Shown: piece by piece, positions 1 through 36,080 of the stretch
Layout: the number at the start of each line of letters is the position of its first letter
How positions within the stretch are numbered: position 1 is the first letter of the stretch
Assembly: GCA_947305815.1 (NCBI GenBank)
Contig: CAMZEI010000002.1
Location: 1-47,351, forward strand
Source of the DNA: an uncultured Bacteroidales bacterium
GTDB lineage: Bacteria > Bacteroidota > Bacteroidia > Bacteroidales > UBA932
Length of the DNA: 47,351 nucleotides
Direction: 5' to 3'
Program-made: the position numbers and the translations under genes
The notes under the pieces: generated by a model
Database searches by the model: none
Told to the model about the DNA's origin: nothing
Seen by the model: the letters and a program-made list of their open reading frames with translations, nothing else

Positions 1-1225
1 AGCGGCTGAGCAGACCGAGGGCGCTGAGGGCGTTCATCTGCTTGCGCATGCCGTCCTCCTGATCCAGGAACCACCATCCGCTGCCGAACTGCATCTTGCC
101 GGGGACGGTGCCGTCATTGAAGGTATAGGCCATGGTCATCATGACCTCGTTGTCCTTGGGGTTGAGGCAGTACAGTATGGTCTTGGCGAGCTTGTCCTCA
201 GATGCCAGACGGTTGAGGAACTTGTGCCCCGCTGCTGCTGTGGGCAGGTCGTGGATTGCGTCGAATCCGGTGTCAGGGCCTACGAGGCCGAACATCTTGG
301 TGTTGTTGTTACGGATAGCTCCCACATGGAACTGCTGGGCCCATCCGGCCTCGGCATCCATAACCGCCATATCATGCAGGAATGCGCTGCGGAATTTGTC
401 AATCTCGCCGGCGGAAGGCTTCTTGCCGAGCAGGACCATCTTGAATATGGCTTCGATCTCAATCTCTTTGTAATCAGCTGCATAGAATGTCTCAAGACCG
501 TGGTCTGACAGCTTGCATCCCATGGATGCGAAGAAGTCGTGCCTGCGCTTGAGGGCTTCCAGCAGGTCGGCGTAGGACAGGATGTCCATGCCGGCAGCGG
601 CTCCGAGTTTCTGGATGTATTCGAAATAGTCGGGAGCCTCGATTGCCATGGCCTTGTCGGGACGCCATGCGGGGATGACTTTGGTGCCGAAGGGGTGCTC
701 GGCTATCATCTTGTGCCAGCGGAGGTCGTCGGCAGGGTCATCGGTCGTGCAGACCACCTCTACTCCGAACTTGCGTATCAGGGCCTGACCGCGGAACTCG
801 GGAGTTGCGAGCTTGGCGTTGCACTCCTCGAAGATCTCGCGTGCCGTTGCGGGGCTCAGGAGCTTGTCAATGCCGAATACGCGGCTGAGCTCCAGGTGAG
901 TCCAGTGATACAGGGGATTGCGGAAGGTTGCGGGGACTGTCTCAGCCCACTTCCGGAAGGTCTCCCAGGAGCTGTATTTGCCTCCTGTGAGATAGTCTTC
1001 GCTCACTCCGTTGCCTCTCATAGCACGCCACTTGTAATGGTCGCCGTAGTGGCCGTCCACCAGCCAGAGCTGGGTGATGTCGCGGAACTGGATGTTCTCC
1101 GCAATCTGCTGCGGTACGAGGTGGCAGTGGTAGTCGATGATGGGCATGCCCTCAGCATGCTCGTGGTAAAGCTTGCGTGCAGTCTTGGTCTGCAGCATGA
1201 AGTCCTTGTTGATAAAAGAAGCCAT
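1..1225 (-). CDS. uxaC: Glucuronate/uronate isomerase (UxaC), C-terminus cut by window edge
   Basis: Minus-strand translation from ATG at 1225: MASFINKDFMLQTKTARKLYHEHAEGMPIIDYHCHLVPQQIAENIQFRDITQLWL...; open to position 1 (not in ORF track because it runs off the edge). IDYHCHL motif typical of uronate isomerase. Confidence 0.93.
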   Translation of the reverse strand, partial: MASFINKDFMLQTKTARKLYHEHAEGMPIIDYHCHLVPQQIAENIQFRDITQLWLVDGHYGDHYKWRAMRGNGVSEDYLTGGKYSSWETFRKWAETVPATFRNPLYHWTHLELSRVFGIDKLLSPATAREIFEECNAKLATPEFRGQALIRKFGVEVVCTTDDPADDLRWHKMIAEHPFGTKVIPAWRPDKAMAIEAPDYFEYIQKLGAAAGMDILSYADLLEALKRRHDFFASMGCKLSDHGLETFYAADYKEIEIEAIFKMVLLGKKPSAGEIDKFRSAFLHDMAVMDAEAGWAQQFHVGAIRNNNTKMFGLVGPDTGFDAIHDLPTAAAGHKFLNRLASEDKLAKTILYCLNPKDNEVMMTMAYTFNDGTVPGKMQFGSGWWFLDQEDGMRKQMNALSALGLLSR

Positions 1226-1247
1226 ATATCTAGTGTTATTAGTTTGG

Positions 1248-1279
1248 AAGTGAGTCGGGGTATCACCCCCGGCTCACTT
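1248..1279. other. Intergenic hairpin (13-bp stem, one G.T) between the DUF4957-like gene and uxaC
   Basis: aagtgagtcgggg / ccccggctcactt inverted repeat with short loop; no clear U-tract. Confidence 0.6.
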
Positions 1280-1290
1280 TAATAAATATG

Positions 1291-4200
1291 CTACTGGTTG
1301 ATGTAGTAGATACGGTAGAAGCGGAGTCCGTTCACGGGAGCGGTGATGACCACATCGCCGGCGGCGATGCTGAATTCGATCTCACTGGGCCCGTTGGAGG
1401 AGAATCCGCCTGCCAAGGCCTGGACATCTTCGCCCACTGCTACCTGCACGGTACGGTCCATAGCTTCGCCGCTGCCGGTATTGGAGACCATAATCTTGAG
1501 GGTCCCCTGCTCGGGAGCGGTGAACTTGAAGTAGCGGTCCATATCGCCGGACTTGCCGCCGAACTGGATGTAATTGGTGCCGTACTTGCTCTTGCTTCCG
1601 GAGTGGAACAGCAGGCCGTCATAGCTCAGATCCCAGCCGGTGATATCGGCACCGGAGGCACCTAGCTTGGCGAACTCTGTCTGCCAGTCGGCTGCGCTGA
1701 AGTCCCAGTCGTATTCGACAAGGGGCTTTGCGGCTCCGGTCATGTAGGTGAACTCAATACTGTAGAAGCGGAGTCCGTTTACGGGAGCAGTGATGACCAC
1801 CTCGCCTGCGGGGACGCTGAACTCAATCACGCCGGGCGCGTTGGAGGAATATCCGCCTGCCAGGGCCTGGACATCTTCGCCCACTGCTACCTGCACGTTA
1901 CGGTCCATAGCTGCGGCGCTGCCGGTATTGGAGACCATAATCTTGAGGATCCCCTGGTCGGGAGCGGTGAACTTGAAGTAGCGGTCCATATCGCCGGACT
2001 TGCCGCCGAACTGGATGTAATTGGTGCCGTACTTGCTCTTGCTTCCGGAGTGGAACAGCAGGCCGTCATAGCTCAGATCCCAGCCGGTGATATCGGCACC
2101 GGAGGCACCTAGCTTGGCGAACTCTGTCTGCCAGTCGGCTGCGCTGAAGTCCCAGGTAAGGGTTACCTCGACCTGCTCCTCGCCGCCCTTAGGCTGCACT
2201 GCAAAGGCCGCCACGCCGGCGTCGGACTTCACATAGTAAATGTCGTCAGCGGGAGGACATGCAGTGACGGTGAAGTTGTACAGGCCTGCCTTGAGGGCTG
2301 CGACATCATCGGCTACGAGGGTGAAGTTGCACGCTGTCTGGGCGTCGAACGCCTTCTTGTTGAAGGTTACGATGTAGCTTGCTGCAGCGGGGACGGCATC
2401 CCAGCTGACATAGACTTCCGTGGCATCGCCTTCACTTACGGTGACGGGCTCGACCACAGGCTTGGGAGTTGCAAGAGTGCTGGCAAGTCCGAGCACATCG
2501 GCGCTCCATGCGAGCTTGTTGACAGTGACGGGGCCGGAAGTGTAGAGATAGATTATACCGGCGCCGGTGACCTTGTCGATGACAATCTTCTGTACGTCAG
2601 CAGTCTTGGTGGGCACTACGCCGCCCTTGACGGAGAAGCCTTCGTCGTCGGAGAGGGCTGCATAGACGGTGCTGCCGCTGCCATTGCTGACTGCGATATC
2701 GACAGAGCCGGGGCCGTCTACCTTGAATGCGAGATATCCGGAGACGGGAGAGCCGCCGCGGCTGAGAGTCGTCGCCTTGGTGAATTCAAGGGCGCCGCTT
2801 GCCACGATGGGGGTCTGTTCGCTGCCGACAATCAGGAGCTCGTCGCGTACGCGGCTGTTCTTGATTTCCCCTGCGAACAGGGATGCGTCAGCAAGATTCC
2901 ATACATGAGGTGCTGCCACCACATGCTGGGTGAGGTCTTCGGTCTTCTCGACATATGCAATCCACCAGGGGGATGCGCCTATGCCGCGTGCCGCGAGGTC
3001 GTCATTGTTGAGGTGGAAGAAGTTGCCCTTGGAGTTGTAGCAGGGGTCGTTCTTGAGGAGGCTCATGCCGAGCTGAGTGGCAGAGAAGTTCTTGGCTCCT
3101 TCGAAGAAGTTGGCGCCGACTACATAATAGTAGTTCTCGGAAGCCGTGATGGACGAAGGCATATTCTCTTCCTTGTTCATCGTTGCGAAAACGGTGACGG
3201 AGGATGCACCTGCGCCGTCATCCTCATAGAGGAAGAGGTTCTTGCGGATGGTGAACTTGCTCCAGGGAGCGCGGATGTAGAAGAGACCCTTCTGGGCTAC
3301 GGCCACATTCTTGACGGTGTTGTTCTCGAAGACCACTTCCTCGATGGAGGTAGCGCTGTCGTCGATGCGGATGAATGCGCGGAAGCCGTCATAGAAGGTA
3401 TTGTTGACCATGGTCAGCTTGCCGATGGCGGCATTCTTGCGGACATCGAATCCGTCTCCGCCTGTACCCTTGACGCCGTAGATCTCACAGCCTTCGAAGC
3501 GGAGCTCGCCGAGGGTGAGCTGACCGGCATCGCTCTGCTGGTAGAAGATACCGTCGTTCTGGTCGTGGAGTTTGCAGCCAACGATGCTGATCTTGTCCAT
3601 AGTGAGGACACCGGAGGCATGGGTCACGACGCGGCCGCGTCCTGTACCGTCGAATTCGATGTTCTCAATGTAGAGCTCTCTGCTCTCGCCGGGAGCGAGG
3701 ACGATGTCGCCCTTCACGACGGGCATCTTGCCATCGGCGTCGGATTCACCAATTATGCGTACACCCTTGGTGAGGGTTACCGCCCCCATATCATAAGGGG
3801 AGCCTGCATAGCTGAGGTAGACATCCTGCTCAGCAGCGAGGGCGGCCTGAAGCTCGGCTGCGCTGGCAACGACAGTAGCGCTGCCGACAGCTGCGGTCGT
3901 CCATGCATCCACTGAGCCGCGGGAGGCTGACAGATAGAACAGGGTTACCTGATATTCGGTCGAAGCCTGAAGTCCGTCGACTACGCCCTTGCCGGCTGCA
4001 ATCTCGGCAGCGGTGAGGGTGTGGCTGACAGTTTTGCCGCCGAATACGGGGGTAGCCTCGATGTGGGTAATATTGTCGGAGTCCTTCTCTTCGGTGCTCC
4101 AGGTGATCGCTATTGAGTTAGCGGTCCTCTTGGAGAGCTCGACGAAGAGGGGAGTGCTGACGGCGTAAGTCTTGATGCTGCCGTCATAGACGACCCAAGG

Positions 4201-31960: not shown

Positions 31961-32763
31961 TTCCGGCCGGTTTCAATAAGAGTGATTACGATATGCTCTG
32001 CGTGCTGGGGCCTACGGCTTCGGGCAAGACGCGCTATGCAGTGCAGCTGGCAAGGGAGCTTGGGGACTGCGAGATAATCTCAGCCGACTCCCGTCAGGTT
32101 TATCGCCGCATGGATATAGGCACAGGCAAGGATCTGGAGGAATACGGTGAGATCCCCTATCACCTGATAGATATAGCTGAGCCGGGGACTCAGTTCAACG
32201 TATTCCTGTACAAGGAAGCTTTTGCCTCTGCTTACGATGATATCCGCAGCCGGGGCAAATTCCCCATCCTGTGCGGGGGTACAGGCTTCTACATCACCGC
32301 CGTCACGCGGGATTACGATTTCCGCACCCACAGCCCTCTCAGCGCTCCTCGTCCGGCCGTCTCAGGACCTTACGGCGAAGGGGCATATGCTTCAGGGGCA
32401 AAGCCTTCAATAGTCATTCCGGGCGAGCGAAGCGAGACCCGGAACCTCCGTGTGTTCTACATCGGGACGGATGTGTCCCGCGACGAGCGGGTCCGTCGCA
32501 TCGACCGCCGCCTCGACGAGCGCCTTCAGTCAGGTATGATTGAGGAAATCCGCGGCCTCCTGGAGTCCGGCGTCAGCGCCGAGGTGCTCCTGTCCTATGG
32601 CCTGGAGTACCGTTTCGTCACCCTTTATCTGCTTGGCGATATCGACTATGCCACGATGCGCGAACGCCTCGCCATCGCCATCCACCAGTTCTCCAAACGG
32701 CAGATGACCTGGTTCCGCGGCATGGAGCGCAGCGGAATTGACATTCACTGGGTTAAACCCTAA
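31957..32763 (+). CDS. miaA: tRNA dimethylallyltransferase, central domain altered by repeat insertion/deletion (possibly impaired)
   Basis: [79 protein letters not shown]; residues after DYDF replaced by [43 protein letters not shown]. Confidence 0.88.
32411..32447 (+). repeat. Short palindromic repeat copy inside miaA
   Basis: tagtcATTCCGGGcgagcgaagcgagaCCCGGAAcctcc. Confidence 0.85.
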
Positions 32764-32771
32764 ACTTCCCT

Positions 32772-32924
32772 AACCCAACATTCGTTGAGGCGGCCTAACC
32801 CTATCTCAGACCCACCAGCGGCCAATTAGGTGCCTCAATGGCACCAAAAAGGCCCCGTTGAGACAGGCAAAACGGCTCTGAGATGCCTACATGGTATACT
32901 TCCTGCCTCAACGAATGTCGGGTT
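32772..32924. repeat. 153-bp nested inverted-repeat element
   Basis: aacccaacattcgttgaggc (32772-32791) vs gcctcaacgaatgtcgggtt (32905-32924), 19/20 complementary; inner ATCTCAGA/TCTGAGAT (32803-32810/32877-32884) and hairpin GGTGCCtcaatGGCACC (32829-32845). Confidence 0.85.
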
Positions 32925-32958
32925 GAGTATTGTGTTTAGAGAATTGATAAAAATGGGA

Positions 32959-33058
32959 AGGATGTGGAGGGGGCCTGCCGGCGGAAACGCGCAAGCGCTT
33001 CCGCCGTGGATGCTCACGCATCCGGGGCCGTTGGCCCCGCAGGCCCCCTCCACATCCT
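32959..33058. other. 100-nt perfect cloverleaf (20-bp outer stem plus three hairpins): candidate structured RNA or palindromic mobile element
   Basis: aggatgtggagggggcctgc (32959-32978) is the exact reverse complement of gcaggccccctccacatcct (33039-33058). Inside: CGGCGGAA..TTCCGCCG (32979-33006), GGATGCtcacGCATCC (33008-33023), GGGGCCgttGGCCCC (33024-33038). Confidence 0.9.
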
Positions 33059-33087
33059 CCACACCTCCTCAATAGCGCTACATTTTT

Positions 33088-34122: not shown

Positions 34123-34749
34123 TTACCTCTCGCTCAACGAAGTTGCGCGGTCGGTGTAGAGTATGCCGGCGAGGTGGTCGTTCTCGTGCTGGAAGATAAC
34201 GGCGGTGAAGCCGGTGACCTGTTCGGTCGTGTCACAAAGAGTCTCGGGGACGGTATATTTGATGGTGATGTCCCGGTAGCGGGGGACCATGCCGCGCCAT
34301 CCTGGGATGGAGAGGCAGCCCTCCGGGCCCTCGACGGTTTCGCCTCGGGTCTCGATGACGGCTATGTTGGGATACACTTCGAACGGCTCACCTTCCTTGT
34401 CGAAACGCTGTACTGCTATGACGCGGCGAAGGATTCCAACCTGGGGCCCTGCGATGCCGACTCCGTCCTGCTCGGGGGAGGTGACGGTGGCGACGAGCTT
34501 CTCGCTGAGGTTCCTGAACTCGGGGGACTGCAGGTCCTCGTCGGAGAGCCAGGTGCAGGAGGTCCTGAGTATCAGGCTATCTTCCTGATTATTAACGGTG
34601 AGCACCCTCATGACGTCCTCGCGGGCGCCGAGGAGCTGCTTCTCTTCGCGGGTCCAGTCGCCCTTGGGGGCGGTGCAGGACGCGAGGAGCATGACTGCCA
34701 GAATAGTCATTCCGGGCTTGACCCGGAATCTCTTTTCATACTTATTCAT
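34123..34749 (-). CDS. def: Peptide deformylase family protein with lipoprotein signal peptide
   Basis: GVGIAGPQVG, EGCLSIPG, FQHENDHLAG (three deformylase motifs); N-terminus MNKYEKRFRVKPGMTILAVMLLASCTAP with lipobox-like LLASC. Confidence 0.88.
   Translation of the reverse strand: MNKYEKRFRVKPGMTILAVMLLASCTAPKGDWTREEKQLLGAREDVMRVLTVNNQEDSLILRTSCTWLSDEDLQSPEFRNLSEKLVATVTSPEQDGVGIAGPQVGILRRVIAVQRFDKEGEPFEVYPNIAVIETRGETVEGPEGCLSIPGWRGMVPRYRDITIKYTVPETLCDTTEQVTGFTAVIFQHENDHLAGILYTDRATSLSER
34704..34736 (+). repeat. Short palindromic repeat copy forming the n-region of the deformylase signal peptide
   Basis: tagtcATTCCGGGcttgaCCCGGAATctctttt. Confidence 0.88.
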
Positions 34750-35990
34750 ATACCAAAGCTCTTTTTGATATCATCCACGGCATCCAGCTTCTCCCATCCG
34801 AAGAACTGCACCTCGCGAGGCTCGCCCTTGACGGTGACGACCTCGCGGTAGGGCTTGCGGCCTACGTGGCCGTAGGCTGCTGTAGGGGCGAAGATGGGGT
34901 TGCGAAGTCCGAAACGGCGCACGATGGCAGCCGGACGCAGGTCGAAAAGGCCTGCCACGCGGGATGCGATCTCTCCGTCGTTCATATCCACGTGCGCGCT
35001 GCCGTAGGTCTCCACGAACACGCTCACAGGCTCGGCCACTCCGATTGCATAGGCGATCTGCACGAGGCATTCGTCACACACGCCTGCGGCGACCAGATTC
35101 TTAGCTATATGGCGTGCCGCATATGCACCGCTGCGGTCAACTTTGGATGAATCCTTCCCGGAGAATGCGCCACCGCCGTGAGCGCCGCGTCCACCATAGG
35201 TATCAACGATAATCTTGCGGCCCGTGAGGCCGGTATCTCCGGCAGGCCCGCCGATCACGAACTTGCCGGTGGGGTTGACATGCAGTATATAGTCGCCCTT
35301 GAAGAGAGCTGCAGTGCGCTCAGGCAGAGAAGCGATAAGGCGTGGGATGAGTATTTCCTTCACATCCTTCTCAATACGCTCGTGCATCTCGGCTTCGGGA
35401 GCGAAATCATCGTGCTGGGTACTCAGGACTATGGTATGGACTCGCACCGGGTGATGGTGGGAGCTGAATTCGACGGTGAACTGGGCTTTGGCGTCCGGCC
35501 GCAGGTAAGGCATGAGCGCGGGCTCGTTATGACGGATATCTGAGAGTATCTGCAGCAGGCGGTGCGAGAGCGAGAGGGCCAGAGGCATGTATTCCTCAGT
35601 GTCGCGGCATGCGTATCCGAACATCATACCCTGGTCGCCGGCGCCCTGAGCGTCTTCGCTGCCGCGCTCGACCCCTTGCAGGATGTCGCGGCTCTGCTCA
35701 TGCAGGGTGCTGATTACCCCGCATCCGGAGGCGTCGAAACCATACTCGGACTTGGTGTAGCCAATACGTGCAATGGTCTTGCGCACGGTCTCCTGGATAT
35801 CGACATAGGCATCCTCGGAGCGTACCTCGCCGCCGACTACTACGAGCCCTGCGGTGCAGAAAGTCTCGCACGCCACCTTGGCGTCAGGGTCCTGGCGCAG
35901 GAATTCATCCAGGATTGCATCTGAAATCTGGTCGGCCACCTTGTCGGGATGGCCCTCGGAGACTGACTCCGAAGTGAAGAGATAGTTCAT
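34746..35990 (-). CDS. metK: S-adenosylmethionine synthetase
   Basis: LFTSESVSEGHPDKVADQISDAILDEFL, GAGDQGMMFGYA, GGRGAHGGGAFSGKDSSKVDRSGAYAARHIAKNLVAAG. Confidence 0.97.
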   Translation of the reverse strand: MNYLFTSESVSEGHPDKVADQISDAILDEFLRQDPDAKVACETFCTAGLVVVGGEVRSEDAYVDIQETVRKTIARIGYTKSEYGFDASGCGVISTLHEQSRDILQGVERGSEDAQGAGDQGMMFGYACRDTEEYMPLALSLSHRLLQILSDIRHNEPALMPYLRPDAKAQFTVEFSSHHHPVRVHTIVLSTQHDDFAPEAEMHERIEKDVKEILIPRLIASLPERTAALFKGDYILHVNPTGKFVIGGPAGDTGLTGRKIIVDTYGGRGAHGGGAFSGKDSSKVDRSGAYAARHIAKNLVAAGVCDECLVQIAYAIGVAEPVSVFVETYGSAHVDMNDGEIASRVAGLFDLRPAAIVRRFGLRNPIFAPTAAYGHVGRKPYREVVTVKGEPREVQFFGWEKLDAVDDIKKSFGI

Positions 35991-36041
35991 TTTAGCATTG
36001 TTTTTTGGCGTGGTTGCAAGCAGTCAAATCTTTCCACGCGG
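35991..36041 (-). ncRNA. Candidate SAM-II-like riboswitch upstream of metK
   Basis: Minus strand: GCGUGG AAA GAUUUGACU GCUUGCAA CCACGC CAAAAAA CAAUGCUAAA AUG. P1 GCGUGG/CCACGC, GAUUUG, GCUUGCA and GCUAAA blocks resembling SAM-II; possible pseudoknot GCUUG/CAA(U)GC; TATCTTTG -7 box just upstream. Confidence 0.6.
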
Positions 36042-36080
36042 GTTGTTAATAAGCGGTGCAAAGATAGTCAAATTTTTTGT

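Follow-up and report, generated by a model that had tools for sequence, protein, structure and literature searches.

Integron attC sites are palindromic, are active as folded single strands of DNA, and carry RYYYAAC and GTTRRRY boxes at their ends. Small mobile repeats resembling MITEs are also known in bacteria, e.g. Correia/NEMIS, ERIC, RUP, and YPAL (reviewed in PMC2229807). For insertion sequences (IS) of the IS1634 family, target duplications of 8-514 bp are on record, and those of IS1549 are likewise long and variable; a 2008 survey proposed no model for them (PMC2266710). Definitions of the repeat and triplex classes compared below follow PMC2229807 and PMC4666352. Small bacterial repeats are mostly simple stem-loops; the family analyzed here, called type A, brings multi-branched, GC-rich palindromes with a compensatory four-way fold into their company.

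The window, i.e. the whole stretch of DNA analyzed (47,351 nt), is the complete contig C2 of a metagenome-assembled genome (MAG; 1.38 Mb, 102 contigs) of an uncultured Bacteroidales bacterium. It contains a 100-nt cloverleaf, for which the initial annotation had noted a perfect 20-bp outer stem around three perfect hairpins with one free base, T33007; direct reading of the sequence reproduced this exactly (Table 1). We consider it somewhat better than an even chance (about 0.55) that this feature is a solo copy of a low-copy, non-coding, GC-rich palindromic repeat that folds at the DNA level and is carried in part as cargo of IS1634 elements.

Table 1. Parts of the window cloverleaf (32959-33058) and its 3′ tail.
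Feature	Position	Strand	Description	Basis
5′ outer-stem arm	32959..32978	+	AGGATGTGGAGGGGGCCTGC, 20 bp perfect, complements 33039-33058	sequence and fold
Hairpin 1	32979..33006	+	8-bp stem CGGCGGAA/TTCCGCCG, inner CGC-GCAA-GCG	fold
Unpaired base	T33007	+	between hairpins 1 and 2	
Hairpin 2	33008..33023	+	GGATGC-TCAC-GCATCC	fold
Hairpin 3	33024..33038	+	GGGGCC-GTT-GGCCCC	fold
3′ outer-stem arm	33039..33058	+	GCAGGCCCCCTCCACATCCT, exact reverse complement of the 5′ arm	
G-poor 3′ tail	33059..33071	+	contains CACACCTCYTCA, common to the C18 copy	

Folding, suggested earlier as a check, gave a highly stable structure. For positions 32940-33080 the RNA fold reached −94.7 kcal/mol (z = −10.7), a value equaled by none of 200 shuffles, and refolding of the cloverleaf with DNA parameters gave z = −9.8. 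In a scan for inverted repeats covering almost the whole MAG, 20 places qualified, with both cloverleaf copies of this genome among the best. As had been stated from the sequence, the element is neither a tRNA (no covariance-model match) nor an intrinsic terminator: a T-run directly 3′ of the stem is missing, the longest in the 25 nt that follow it being 1-3 in all copies. Runs of A up to five long occur 5′ of the stem but are not adjacent to it in the window copy. At gathering as well as lax thresholds, Rfam returned only chance hairpin matches at the cloverleaf and no match to a tRNA or another family.

The second copy in the host MAG was found by BLASTN at C18:6812-6901 and is 74% identical; it shows matched changes in the outer stem and a hairpin-1 tip unlike that of the window copy. 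A covariance model (CM) built on these two copies led to four further genomes of the genus. A second one, applied to 400 genomes of the genus, brought in G1003 (two copies), G225, and G040, and type A homologues were thus present in eight of the 400. A pattern scan of 85,488 species genomes yielded 40 stretches, including four copies of the Bacteroidales type (RGIG3780, RGIG5940, RUG619, and bacterium P3). Bacterium P3 was new; the other three, Bacteroidales MAGs of which the first two come from ruminant stomach according to their record titles, were already among the CM finds. Five of the 40 stretches were read, with one true copy (L182) and four chance matches (L171, L175, L179, and L158); the remainder lie mostly in other phyla with GC-rich genomes. 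A pattern scan of IMG/VR gave four stretches matching by pattern alone.

In total, the family comprises 11 copies in nine genomes, a small set drawn in part from fragmented MAGs. All holders are Bacteroidales of one genus or its close kin (one MAG is unplaced). No type A copy was found outside the genus by CM searches across the order (395 genomes, 207 genera) and the family, and distant BLASTN searches of plasmid and phage collections gave no match. CM matches in G233, G978, and G899 proved to be similar to another cloverleaf, type B (see below), and were rejected. The unit measures about 80-125 bp with a GC content of 0.68-0.73 and falls into two subtypes, A1 (G000 with two copies, G166, G269, and G293) and A2 (G314, G1003 with two copies, G225, and G040). 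Marks of A1 are CCTGC, CGGCGG, and GGATG; those of A2 are GCGCCTCCG, CGAGCG, and mostly CCGTC. Hairpin 3, the purine-rich outer stem, and the overall layout are common to both. An assembly artefact is excluded by the independent occurrence of the cloverleaf in eight further genomes. The initial annotation had reckoned with such an artefact, or with an isolated palindrome lacking further copies and compensatory changes; none of these applies. Type A is a real and apparently undescribed repeat family, no earlier description having been found in the literature searched, which was limited in extent.

The fold is conserved well beyond the sequence. In an alignment of seven copies, 16 of 38 pairs had changed on both sides; shuffled sequences gave 5.2 and slid controls 1-5. 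When all 11 copies were indexed by structure, at least two types of Watson-Crick pair occurred at 25 of 35 pair positions: 12 of 18 in the outer stem, six of six in hairpin 1, five of five in hairpin 2 (where indexing is loose because of a bulge or shorter stem in some copies), and two of six in hairpin 3, the sole near-invariant stem. In most A2 copies hairpin 2 has been replaced, through matched changes, by stems of the CCGTC/GACGG type.

A structured RNA was among the three possibilities raised in the initial annotation. The cloverleaf would then be transcribed, at the 3′ end of the transposase mRNA when inside an IS and as a small RNA when solo, and would act by stabilizing RNA or blocking it. 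The strong RNA fold speaks for this, as do GNRA-type loops in some copies (GCAA, GAAA, and GGAA), the orientation of IS-borne copies on the transposase strand, and the conserved unpaired purine motifs of type B, which occupies the same slot and in this respect resembles a functional RNA. Yet G-U pairs are nearly absent: they account for three of 351 pairs in the 11 structure-indexed copies, as against 7% (40 of 580) in tRNAs of the host MAG. For the seven-copy set (2 of 264) the deficit relative to tRNAs of the same genome is significant (Fisher p = 3e-5 to 8e-5, with 3e-5 for 2 of 264). Furthermore, the loops are not conserved, no Rfam family was matched at gathering score or by a convincing weak hit, and the solo copies have no neighbor in common, their settings being convergent, divergent, or of another kind. 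The near absence of G-U pairs fits DNA-level constraint, or repair of the arms by template switching, better than selection on an RNA. The RNA reading is thereby weakened and appears doubtful. Solely from the G-U scarcity we infer that type A palindromes are probably maintained at the DNA level. This scarcity offers a simple sequence test for telling DNA-level from RNA-level palindromes.

Four of the 11 copies reside in IS1634-family insertion sequences. In G293 and G166 the cloverleaf begins a few bases 3′ of the transposase stop codon. In bacterium P3 it also lies directly behind the stop and is followed by the same IS right part, next to which the G269 copy is found. The transposase next to the cloverleaf belongs to the IS1634 family in G293, G166, and P3 (NCBIfam NF033559, E = 4e-101 for the G293 protein). 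IS-borne cloverleafs are encoded on the strand of the transposase, and the IS ends carry terminal repeats of the TTTGACA/TGTCAAA type. At locus L191, the IS (1099-3222) encloses the cloverleaf between transposase and right end, inside the terminal repeats. This locus is about 97% identical to L192 throughout the transposase and similar to it again at the right end, whereas the segment between differs, being type A in L191 and type B in L192. The slot behind the transposase thus holds a type A cassette that is interchangeable with another cloverleaf. The IS at L192 has a direct repeat of about 90 bp on both sides, a target duplication in keeping with the long ones on record for IS1634 and IS1549.

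Type B is characterized by a conserved hairpin-AGGGG-hairpin-AGGGA core within locus-specific outer stems of about 20-29 bp. It was detected at L192, L194-L198, L211, L218, L220, L224, L251, and L265, both in the IS1634 slot and solo; solo occurrences in the host MAG include L064:17051-17176 and L033:18659. Where type B was run against Rfam, nothing matched. In the remaining IS1634 elements of the genus, the slot is empty or contains type B or a decayed remnant; among the decayed forms are a partial type A (L212) and a type B with an internal deletion (L208). Several cloverleaf types could be regarded as exchangeable folded-DNA cassettes that serve the life cycle of Bacteroidales IS1634-like elements and can go solo, with roles such as single-strand recognition, coupling to replication, or a part in the unexplained long target duplications of IS1634. 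We regard this as unlikely. In any case, the exchangeable slot provides a concrete place to test what use such structures are to a transposon.

None of the A2 copies found was in an IS, and the IS may therefore be no more than a secondary carrier, not the vehicle of the family. Repeated IS elements frequently drop out of short-read assemblies, and the lack of an IS1634 transposase match in the host MAG is for this reason weak evidence. No IS1634-family transposase adjoins the window copy. When its flanks were compared with the IS sequences by BLASTN, essentially only the cloverleaf itself matched and no IS remnants were seen. A 24-nt match between C18 DNA and the IS right part had a near-chance E-value.

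The remaining seven copies, the one in the window included, are solo. The window copy is bordered by a second structured repeat (32770-32930) and by the 3′ side of a RhuM-like gene, whose earlier identification was borne out by a Pfam match (PF13310, E = 3e-22). The C18 copy has a DpnII/Dam restriction-modification pair on one side and clpB on the other. As both copies are followed by the tail CACACCTCYTCA, they are probably siblings, with a repeated unit that reaches somewhat past the stem. In all seven copies measured, the tail is poor in G and rich in pyrimidines. Neighbors of the solo copies comprise (i) RhuM-like and miaA; (ii) Dam and clpB; (iii) ECF sigma-like and FecR-like; (iv) Lrp-like; (v) MsrA-like; (vi) adenine methylase-like; and (vii) RAYT genes (RhuM-like, Dam, and DpnII proteins by Pfam, the others named by eye from ORF lists), with no gene type in common and in convergent, divergent, and other orientations. 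Adjacent direct repeats indicative of target duplication were not seen at solo copies, the exact ends of which are uncertain. Comparison with relatives demonstrated no empty site at def-miaA or at clpB, as synteny was too low. Disruption of ClpB by the C18 copy was considered and rejected, since the short ClpB frame is found genus-wide.

Some further features of these surroundings were recorded. ClpB of the genus is encoded mostly by open frames of 680-770 aa, shorter than the approximately 870 aa of other families, and its N-domain is apparently missing (L249-L272); in the same loci, a conserved TGACA..TGTCAGTGGAAT..AATTTGA element precedes clpB. The structured repeat at 32770-32930 has arms AACCCAACATTCGTTGAGGC at 32772-32791 and 32905-32924 that are 95% complementary, and diverged copies with a variable interior are present on C6, C87, C86, and C83 of the host MAG. 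A short ATTCCGGGC..CCCGGAA palindrome lies within the miaA and peptide deformylase-like frames (window ~32416-32446 and ~34703-34735), with related ones scattered over the MAG (L024:280-346, L021:13939, and L036:9045). MiaA of the window is short (268 aa). On the minus strand, a SAM-II riboswitch scoring above the Rfam gathering score was located at 35982-36043, upstream of metK.

The low copy number, the lack of a common gene neighborhood, and the decayed IS versions (L212 and L208) would all suit a functionless relic, spread by IS1634 insertion and subsequent decay, whose palindromes are perfect only through template-switch correction. This explanation strikes us as quite improbable. Correction alone leaves the persistence of hairpin number and order unexplained, and the three-hairpin architecture with its near-invariant hairpin 3 has been kept in two subtypes and nine genomes.

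The initial annotation had also considered a recombinase or transposase recognition site, for which direct support did not emerge, no target duplications having been seen at the solo copies. In its most specific form, the cloverleaf would be a large REP-like hairpin mobilized as single-stranded DNA by a Y1 (RAYT/HUH) transposase. Y1_Tnp candidates were detected in six of seven genomes tested (that of the host just below the cut-off), palindromic repeats flank some RAYT genes of the genus, and the G040 copy is situated about 130 nt upstream of a RAYT gene. On the other side, type A does not border the other RAYT loci examined, which possess different palindromes of their own, no Y1_Tnp was found in G314, which holds type A, no common tag was seen at the element ends, and there are one to two copies instead of more than 100. 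We therefore judge mobilization by Y1 very improbable. RAYT-like Y1 genes at L284 (host MAG, C13) and L285 (G023) have near-identical palindromes on both sides, of the GTTGCTACAC.. and GGGAGGGTTACCGTCAAA types, an arrangement expected for RAYT/REP pairs. Like the RAYT-mobilized REP/BIME sequences, type A is palindromic and intergenic, and most type A genomes have RAYT-like genes. REPs, however, are 20-40 nt long, occur in high copy number, and flank RAYT genes, whereas type A spans 100 nt with four helices and two copies in the MAG. Given that the RAYT loci examined are unflanked by type A apart from the G040 copy, membership in this class was rejected.

Among the three original proposals, a non-autonomous palindromic element is the best supported, in view of the dispersed copies, the intragenomic pair, and carriage inside IS1634 elements. 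For the DNA-folding repeat, the following course can be envisaged. Unwinding of the duplex during replication, transcription, or transposition would allow extrusion of a cruciform or folding of the single strand. Intrastrand template switching between the arms could then keep them complementary while their sequence drifts. Spread would be passive, as IS1634 cargo, with rare intragenomic copying in addition. Behind a transposase the element might, if it has any role, serve as a structural barrier or as an mRNA 3′-end cap that sets the IS gene apart from the DNA around it. In the window we would have a solo derivative, which need not play any part for miaA or the RhuM-like gene.

With respect to other known systems, type A shares palindromy with attC sites but not their hallmark, the RYYYAAC/GTTRRRY box pair being present in none of the 11 copies. 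The purine-rich arm, pyrimidine-rich arm, and pyrimidine-rich tail recall intrastrand triplex motifs (PMC4666352). A triplex appeared attractive in the window and C18 copies; across seven copies, the mirror match of the tail was not above chance (p = 0.43), and this candidate was dropped. The ends and the duplication of about 90 bp fit the IS1634 family, and several cloverleafs lie inside such elements behind the transposase. As a cassette, the cloverleaf is nevertheless optional. Many IS1634 relatives in the genus are without it or have type B instead, and solo copies exist without an IS. The closest resemblance is to MITE-like repeats, which are likewise about 100-200 bp, non-coding, mostly intergenic, built on a stable long stem, and dispersed in related genomes. 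Type A differs from them in its GC content of 68-73% (as opposed to A+T-rich sequence with 5′TA3′ ends), its one to two copies per genome, its three internal hairpins, and the absence of IS-matching terminal repeats and of a visible target duplication. A typical MITE was rejected both by composition and because the type A arms do not match the ends of IS1634 (TTTGACA/TGTCAAA), the IS ends chosen for comparison. Type A thus behaves most like a MITE-type passenger repeat, yet is not classed as a MITE; it is best read as a predicted cruciform-forming, non-autonomous repeat that travels partly as IS cargo.
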